64,000 nt of DNA from Acidithiobacillus caldus ATCC 51756. Lineage in GTDB: Bacteria; Pseudomonadota; Gammaproteobacteria; Acidithiobacillales; Acidithiobacillaceae. The stretch covers positions 2,180,615 to 2,244,614 of the forward strand of contig NZ_CP005986.1 of NCBI RefSeq assembly GCF_000175575.2, in the 5' to 3' direction. Below are positions 10,224-46,467 of this stretch, in pieces. Below the pieces are notes generated by a model. The model saw nothing but the letters and a program-made list of their open reading frames with translations, was not told where the DNA came from and searched no databases. Positions within the stretch are counted from its first letter, which is position 1; each line of letters starts with the position of its first letter. The position numbers and the translations under genes are program-made.

Positions 10224-12212
<1,989 letters not shown>

Positions 12213-12326
12213 TTCGGCAACCCTTGGATGCTACCGAATTCCCCTGGAGACTGTCAAAGTTTGTCGCCACTGCCGACGGTATCGGCGCTTCCATCCTCGA
12301 AGCAGAGCGGCCCTCGCTTTGACCAG

Positions 12327-44900: not shown

Positions 44901-46112
44901 TCAGCTGGGGTGGGCAGTTCCCGGTATCCGTCGGGCGCCATCGAAGCGCGCCGCCCAGTATGGATTGTCGAGACTGGCCACCTGTACTCCCGAGCTGGGA
45001 GTCTGCGCACTGACGAAACGCCCGTGGCCGATGTAGATACCGACGTGGGAATAGGCCCGATGCATGGTGTTGAAGAACACGAGATCACCGGGCTTGAGAT
45101 CGCTGCGCGGGATACGCGGCAGGGCCGCAGCCTGGGCATAGGAGGTACGCGGTACCTCGATGTCGAATTTGGCCAGGACGAATTTGACGAAACCACTGCA
45201 ATCGAAGCCCGACACCGGGCTCATGCCACCCCAGCGATAAGGCGCACCGATGAACTTCAGAGCCGAGCGCACCAAGGAACGTGGCGACAGCCAACTGCTG
45301 TCCCCACTGGTACCACCGGCATCCGCCGCCTCGGCAAGGTCGGCAGCGAGGTTGGCCACGCCCTGACGTCCAACGGCGGCATCGCCGCTGGCCTCCAGCG
45401 CCATCAAGGGATGCCGTGCCCAGTGATAGGCTTGGCTGGCCAGCATCTCCAGCGCCAGACCCAGCTGCGACGTCGGTGCCTCGGTACTTTGGGGTCGTTC
45501 TCCACTGGGGGCACCCTGGGCCACCGCCGGGATGGCTGCTGCGGATGCCGCCACCTCAGCCGAGGCCTCAGCCGTCGCAGGCATGGGTACGATGGGCGCT
45601 ACTCCGGTCTTGACCAGAACCAGGGACTGGTCGATGAAGGACGGTGCCGTCACCGATGCCGCCCGGGTCGGCAGGGGAACGATCCGGTAGGGACGGAACT
45701 CCGGTTGCTGCGGCGCCGCCCCAACTCCGGCGAACTCCACCGGACTCATCCCCATCAGCTCCAGGGCTGTGGGCATGAGGCTATCGTAATTGGCCGGAGC
45801 CGGAGCGTTCTCCTCACTGCTCCGGTACTCCCCCGGCCGCACGGACGGCACGTGCGCTGCCACCTTCCGGTGCGTAGTCACGCGATGATGAGCGCCACGC
45901 ACTGCGGACCGCTTGCGCAGGGCGGTGGCTCGGGACTCCTTCTTGGCTGCGACCTTGTGTGCGGCCACCTTGCCCGGGTGGTGCTGCGCGCTGGAATGCG
46001 TGCGTGGATGCGCGCCATGCGCTGCACTCGTGGTTGCTGCTTGGGCCAGCCCGCTGCCGCCCAAGAGCACGGCAGTGGCAAGCAGGATGTGCCAACGGCT
46101 TTTCTTCTGCAT
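44901..46112 (-). CDS. Exported NlpC/P60-family peptidoglycan hydrolase
   Basis: This 403-residue protein has a signal peptide (LLATAVLLGGSGLAQA), a long His/Ala/Pro-rich region (about 25-280) and a C-terminal NlpC/P60 domain with Cys305 in FDCSGFVKF, His356 in YSHVGIYIG and His363. These are the catalytic residues for cutting peptide stems in the cell wall. The basic, His-rich linker (about 25-90) may bind the wall or metals. AGGGAG precedes the ATG at 46112. The gene lies 105 bases after a terminator-ended structured RNA on the same strand, which might control it. Confidence 0.9.
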   Translation of the reverse strand: MQKKSRWHILLATAVLLGGSGLAQAATTSAAHGAHPRTHSSAQHHPGKVAAHKVAAKKESRATALRKRSAVRGAHHRVTTHRKVAAHVPSVRPGEYRSSEENAPAPANYDSLMPTALELMGMSPVEFAGVGAAPQQPEFRPYRIVPLPTRAASVTAPSFIDQSLVLVKTGVAPIVPMPATAEASAEVAASAAAIPAVAQGAPSGERPQSTEAPTSQLGLALEMLASQAYHWARHPLMALEASGDAAVGRQGVANLAADLAEAADAGGTSGDSSWLSPRSLVRSALKFIGAPYRWGGMSPVSGFDCSGFVKFVLAKFDIEVPRTSYAQAAALPRIPRSDLKPGDLVFFNTMHRAYSHVGIYIGHGRFVSAQTPSSGVQVASLDNPYWAARFDGARRIPGTAHPS

Positions 46113-46217
46113 TCGACTCTCCCTACGGTCCTTGAGGAGTGCCGCTGGATAATCCGCCAATGGGGCCGATTATCTAGGGGCATCGCATTCTGTCAGTTTT
46201 CTACACCTGCAAACACC

Positions 46218-46244
46218 AAAAAAGCCGACGACACATCGGCTTTT
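46218..46244 (-). terminator. Terminator ending the structured RNA
   Basis: On the minus strand AAAAGCCGA and TCGGCTTTT pair around a seven-base loop, followed by T residues (six in all). The element is nearly symmetrical and could act on both strands, but no gene precedes it on the plus strand. Confidence 0.75.
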
Positions 46245-46341
46245 CCACATCATCCATCAGAGCGTACTGCGTTGCCGCACCGACGGCCTCCCCGCCATCG
46301 GCCACACCCAGCGCTCTGCTCCCTCTCGGGATCGGCAGAAC
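46218..46341 (-). ncRNA. Putative structured small RNA or leader upstream of the NlpC gene
   Basis: Read on the minus strand, this stretch forms a series of good hairpins. CTGC...TCCC-GAGA-GGGA-GCAG comes first. A stem AGAGCG/CGCTCT then encloses an 8-bp stem CCGATGGC/GCCGTCGG and a TGCG-GCAA-CGCA hairpin with a GNRA loop. It ends in a terminator with six T. A TAATAT box lies at 46353-46348. No credible frame runs through it. It could be a free small RNA or a riboswitch/attenuator for the NlpC gene. No known family was matched. Confidence 0.5.
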
Positions 46342-46467
46342 ACCGGTATATTAGTCATAAGTGACATATATAGGCCATAACGCATGGTTGGGAATATAGA
46401 GGGCTTCGGCGGTCTTGGCAAGGGTCGAAAGGGGTCCGAAAAAGTCCCCTCCAACGCGTCCCAGATC

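Follow-up and report, generated by a model that had tools for sequence, protein, structure and literature searches.

A candidate translation-coupled attenuator leader before an NlpC/P60 hydrolase gene in the Acidithiobacillaceae

Introduction

In the pyrE and ampC attenuators of Escherichia coli, a ribosome near the terminator relieves termination. The pyrE attenuator relies for this on the end of the gene before it. That of ampC has a minimal start-stop and couples expression to growth rate as well as to cell-wall metabolism. Unlike these two, the locus described here has its own promoter, followed by a frame of 33 codons. The amino-acid leader-peptide attenuators, such as those of trp and his, have in common with it that an intrinsic terminator comes after the leader ORF. 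Unlike them, its leader was found to contain no run of regulatory codons, no conserved peptide and no antiterminator, and its stop lies closer to the stem than the distance of more than 20 bp from stop to terminator that is usual in amino-acid attenuators (PMC4824070).

In the pyrBI (pyrL) attenuator of E. coli the leader ORF is short, and an intrinsic terminator sits at its end or within that end; a close ribosome blocks the hairpin, and the sequence of the peptide is unimportant (PMC4824070, PMC5021804). The same layout and the same indifference to peptide sequence are seen at the present locus, and the same action of the ribosome is proposed for it. In E. coli, termination dropped from about 90% to under 10% once the stop had been shifted from 28 to 5 bp ahead of a terminator (PMC4824070). 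When several bp separate stop and terminator, the ribosome represses the terminator almost fully, and beyond about 27 nt termination is again complete; in pyrBI itself the terminator lies inside the leader ORF (PMC4824070). The locus differs from pyrBI in that a cell-wall hydrolase would be controlled, in that a Shine-Dalgarno sequence is lacking, and in that half of the species have their stop 4-16 nt ahead of the stem and not behind it. The U-rich polymerase pause tract of pyrBI, which serves as its UTP sensor, was likewise not seen in the leader by eye.

The tandem attenuators of Salmonella mgtCBR are also comparable, since transcription into their coding region is governed by short ORFs within a long leader; there, two ORFs are tied to stem-loops, unlike the one frame and the lack of alternative stems at the present locus (PMC3641672). 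A search of the available literature yielded neither work on attenuators or leader peptides in Acidithiobacillus nor a transcript mapped to the locus. The element lies in a window of 64,000 nucleotides (the whole stretch of DNA that was analysed) from Acidithiobacillus caldus ATCC 51756, and we read it, with about even confidence, as the 5′ leader of the hydrolase mRNA and a translation-coupled (pyrL-type) transcription attenuator. A conserved promoter, a start-codon block, an open frame, a terminator and a position before the hydrolase gene are all observed.

The locus and its relatives

A preliminary description of this DNA had placed a structured RNA upstream of an NlpC/P60 hydrolase, and Pfam confirms the identity of that gene (Table 1). 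Homologous leaders were found by searching the family with the hydrolase protein and then inspecting the DNA upstream of each orthologue. In the protein search 28 of the 29 family genomes showed an orthologue, and a homologous leader region precedes it in all 28 species concerned, which belong to four genera; the upstream DNA, used as the query against the same family, produced few clear matches. Scanning 84,980 species genomes with a pattern of the 5′ block, a pattern whose coverage does not extend to genus g3, returned 20 records, each with a leader already among the 28. Those named to genus were Acidithiobacillus or Igneacidithiobacillus, and the others were metagenome bins labelled only Proteobacteria. 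Because these records all fall in the known set and the two genomes of the sister family hold only distant NlpC paralogues, the leader is, as judged from sequence comparison, a trait of the Acidithiobacillaceae and restricted to that family. A second DNA match within the source genome (L002) comprised only 33 nt of GC-rich hairpin and was judged to be due to chance.

Table 1. Features of the leader region and its flanking genes (window coordinates).
Feature	Coordinates	Strand	Description
NlpC/P60 hydrolase gene	44901..46112	(-)	403 aa; presumed controlled gene; Pfam PF00877 (NLPC_P60), E 1.1e-30
Shine-Dalgarno-covering hairpin	46119..46139	(-)	CTCCT paired with AGGGAG, by folding
Second conserved hairpin	46140..46182	(-)	directly before the hydrolase start; pairing in 89.8% of cells, with both sides altered at five pairs
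Intrinsic terminator	46218..46244	(-)	strong stem and U tract; found in 24/28 relatives
Body hairpins	46245..46347	(-)	hairpin with GAGA loop, stem CCGATGGC/GCCGTCGG, hairpin with GCAA loop; specific to lineages
Leader ORF (predicted)	46257..46358	(-)	33 codons plus TGA; peptide MTNIPVFCRSREGAERWVWPMAGRPSVRQRSTL; sequence not conserved, frame kept open
Conserved 5′ transcribed block	46347..46385	(-)	ends ATGRCTAATAT; holds the invariant ATG and the TAATAT of the preliminary description
Sigma-70-type promoter	46393..46421	(-)	TTGCCA 46421-46416, 17-nt spacer, TATATT 46398-46393; 10/12 consensus bases
Thioredoxin-like gene, divergent	from about 46522	plus	in front of the element

Promoter and conserved 5′ block

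The promoter keeps the form TTGCnn-17-TAtAnT, with a spacing of exactly 17 nt, in all 28 genomes. Given its position, transcription should start near 46385 and yield a short transcript of about 168 nt. This predicted start lies upstream of the one in the preliminary description, in which the RNA was taken to be about 125 nt long and TAATAT to be a -10 element. The latter assignment was rejected: the last T of the motif is lost in several relatives (TAATAC, TAATAG, TAATGA; that is, C, G or A replaces it) and, since the conserved promoter sits upstream of it, TAATAT lies within the predicted transcript, at the end of the conserved block.

Column conservation over the 28 genomes showed an alignment of the 5′ block that is gap-free as far as ATGRCTAAT. 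The ATG at 46358 is invariant (28/28), and the following GRCTRAT is nearly so. In the GCT and AAT codons of the block even the third positions are invariant, which suggests constraint at the nucleotide level. The start region is also more open than the remaining leader in 17 of 20 genomes.

The core occurs in one copy per genome, always before the hydrolase gene, and a search of the genomes for further copies of it or of its complement (at most 2 mismatches in 17) gave none, except for a single 2-mismatch match in G010. As the operator of a regulon it was rejected because of this single copy. The same facts bear on the main rival to the attenuator, a stand-alone trans-acting small RNA, in which the 5′ block would be the seed, the body would drift, the terminator would form the 3′ end and the hydrolase would have its own promoter. 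An open conserved 5′ segment, a drifting body and an intrinsic terminator are the usual profile of a small RNA, and the element does have its own promoter and intrinsic terminator (the terminator being absent in 4 of the 28 species). However, the search for second copies left only the G010 match, no long complementary site was found, the locus is always tied to the hydrolase gene, the four genomes without the terminator retain promoter and core, and the open frame is left unexplained. A small RNA had been one of two readings offered in the preliminary description; it is no longer the best one and is kept here as a rather doubtful rival.

An open frame between start and terminator

The preliminary description had found no credible ORF in this stretch, but one runs from 46358 to 46257, beginning at the ATG that is invariant in all 28 genomes. 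Read in frame 0 from this ATG, all 24 terminator-bearing genomes stay free of stops until the last 16 nt ahead of the terminator stem; over the same stretches, the remaining two forward frames contain 12 and 22. Counted by genome, frame 0 is open in 24/24, and the other five frames are open in 11 to 20. When all members of a lineage were required to be open, the test gave p of about 0.02-0.004 with 8-13 lineages; the strictest count, one member per lineage at 8 lineages, gave p = 0.13, and multiplying the shuffle probabilities of 8 lineages gave about 0.003. Since the sequences are GC-rich, open frames are not rare (20-70% in shuffles), and the statistics are weakened because the genomes are related and the lineages few. 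The evidence from sequence for the ORF is thus moderate.

No Shine-Dalgarno sequence precedes the ATG at 46358, and translation of the ORF is a prediction. A leaderless ORF at 46385 (MRYG...) was rejected, as its ATG is missing in many relatives (ACG, AAG, AGG), and for this reason the ATG at 46358 is preferred. The leader peptides are unrelated between lineages beyond M-[AT]-[ND], and the substitutions in the ORF show no third-position excess overall. On this ground a functional leader peptide was rejected, so that translation, and not the peptide, would be the selected feature.

In 12 genomes the stop precedes the stem by 4-16 nt (ending 12 nt before it in the source genome), and in 12 the ORF crosses the stem, which places the end of the ORF within ribosome reach of the stem or through it in 24/24 terminator-bearing genomes, with moderate significance. 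Because the stop is found at 4-16 nt or behind the stem, the arrangement is pyrL-like and not of the amino-acid-attenuator type. In the terminator-less trio G007, G011 and G015 the leader ORF has only 8 codons, as expected if the long frame is needed only together with a terminator.

Terminator and body structure

The fold given in the preliminary description for the minus strand of 46218-46353 was confirmed: it has a hairpin with a GAGA loop, a stem of 9 bp, a small hairpin with a GCAA loop and the terminator (MFE -67.5 kcal/mol, z = -4.9, a stability that none of the 200 shuffles reached). When homologous regions were aligned, the terminator part of this structured RNA held up and the body did not. 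The terminator stem stays paired across genera despite changes on both sides, as GAGCCGAAC/GTTCGGCTT in g2 and GGCCGCCTC/GAGGCGGTC in G004. It is not recognisable in four species of genus g4 (L054, L055, L052 and L049; genomes G007, G015, G011 and G017), which keep the promoter and the core. The long body stem is identical in G001, the nearest relative of the source genome, and is not kept in other genera; more generally, hairpins in the stretch from core to terminator vary from genus to genus. Folded without the terminator, the body is better than shuffles in G000 (z -3.3), G002 (-5.2) and G005 (-3.2), but its z is near or above zero in 5 of 12 lineages, and in about half of the lineages it does no better than shuffles.

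The second reading offered in the preliminary description was a terminator-type riboswitch, whose body would be a ligand-binding domain controlling the terminator. Strong folding of the source copy and of G002 and G005 is in keeping with it, as is the pairing of the 5′ end with a segment before the terminator in part of g2. However, no covarying aptamer fold is common to the genera, Rfam offers no match, and the body folds as poorly as noted above in several lineages. A partner for the 5′ arm of the terminator was also sought by comparing duplex energies with those of shuffles, and none was consistent (z about 0 across genomes). The lack of a shared body fold together with that of a consistent antiterminator argues against a riboswitch, which we consider very improbable, and equally against a classical amino-acid attenuator.

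The element had been said to match no known family, and this was borne out by covariance-model searches: Rfam 15 at the gathering threshold gave no family on the element, and permissive thresholds on the window and eight relatives gave only weak sub-threshold matches. The only Rfam match in the whole window is a TPP riboswitch (RF00059, 77.9 bits) at 12126-12217 on the minus strand.

In part of genus g2 (L032, L042 and others), a duplex joins the RNA 5′ end GGACTATGGAGCA to a segment that lies some 32-40 nt upstream of the terminator. The z of this duplex reaches down to -5, and it forms a lineage-specific closing stem. As a general closing stem the pairing was rejected, being strong in part of g2 and absent in others.

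Proposed mechanism

Because the conserved parts are a promoter, a start-codon-like block and a terminator, with a frame held open between them, the element points to a translated attenuator leader; the promoter stands upstream of ORF and terminator, and the gene presumed to be controlled lies behind them. RNA polymerase would start near 46385 and make the conserved 5′ block. A ribosome would then initiate at the AUG at 46358, in AU-rich and relatively open RNA without a Shine-Dalgarno sequence, and translate about 33 codons whose sequence is free. If close behind, the ribosome would sit on or next to the terminator stem and block the hairpin, and the polymerase would continue into the hydrolase gene. 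If translation were late or failing, the terminator would form and the RNA of about 168 nt would be released. We infer translation of the ORF, ribosome-dependent read-through and pausing; the body hairpins are possible pausing structures that may let the ribosome catch up with the polymerase. As to the signal, translation capacity or growth state would be our guess.

Terminators within about 100 nt of the start are usually not repressed unless the polymerase pauses (PMC4824070), which counts against the attenuator. The retention of the core even where the terminator has been lost also speaks against it, as do the missing Shine-Dalgarno sequence at the ATG, the small number of lineages, the constraint at the nucleotide level suggested for the block and a promoter-like site behind the terminator in the source genome, at 46196-46169.

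If the attenuator reading is true, wall hydrolysis in Acidithiobacillus would be gated by the translation of a short ORF with arbitrary sequence, giving a simple link from translation state to wall remodelling and extending pyrL-type attenuation to a wall hydrolase. Such a leader is recognised by its frame and the position of its stop, not by sequence or fold, and RNA-family searches are blind to a signature of this kind. In a further, tentative version of this reading, the ORF, without a Shine-Dalgarno sequence and irrelevant in sequence, would be a dedicated sensor of translation-transcription coupling that ties the hydrolase to translational capacity in extreme acidophiles, with the second covarying hairpin as a tandem translational switch.

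Between the terminator and the hydrolase gene

The pairing of the second conserved hairpin (89.8% of cells) compares with 29-52% in slid controls. Its covariance model matched once in the source genome and otherwise at chance level only, among 274 genomes of the class. It is followed by the hairpin that covers the Shine-Dalgarno sequence of the hydrolase, and in other genera the corresponding pairings TTCCC/GGGAG and CTTCC/GGAGG are visible. These two hairpins may add a translational layer to the control of transcription.

The promoter-like site at 46196-46169 on the minus strand has the form CTGACA-16-GATAAT, and its -10 overlaps the second hairpin. From it, a second transcription start is possible in the source genome, as far as its sequence indicates. 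Many relatives have only a weak counterpart or none, and the sites in genus g2 are weaker. Between terminator and hydrolase, no promoter-like site above the shuffled median was found in G003, G004, G006, G008, G009 and G013, all of which bear the terminator; since nothing above chance lies behind the terminator there, transcription of the hydrolase in these genomes probably depends on read-through.

The site in the source genome, with the weaker ones of g2, is a point in favour of the small RNA, for which the hydrolase needs a promoter of its own; G004 and G009, with a terminator and no such site above chance, tell against it. The same site would suit a reading in which the terminator is plain and partial and read-through is passive, or in which it acts as an insulator; the second promoter would then partly serve the hydrolase, and the leader would exert no regulation. 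In favour of this reading, no antiterminator was found, and in GC-rich sequence open frames are no rarity. It leaves unexplained, however, why a near-invariant core lies downstream of the promoter in 28 genomes and why the stops are grouped 4-16 nt before the stem, and we regard it as unlikely.

The segment 46182-46119 on the minus strand can also be read as a short ORF, with ATG TCN CTG CAT AAT in g2 and g3. In g3, the end of this short ORF overlaps the ATG of the hydrolase.
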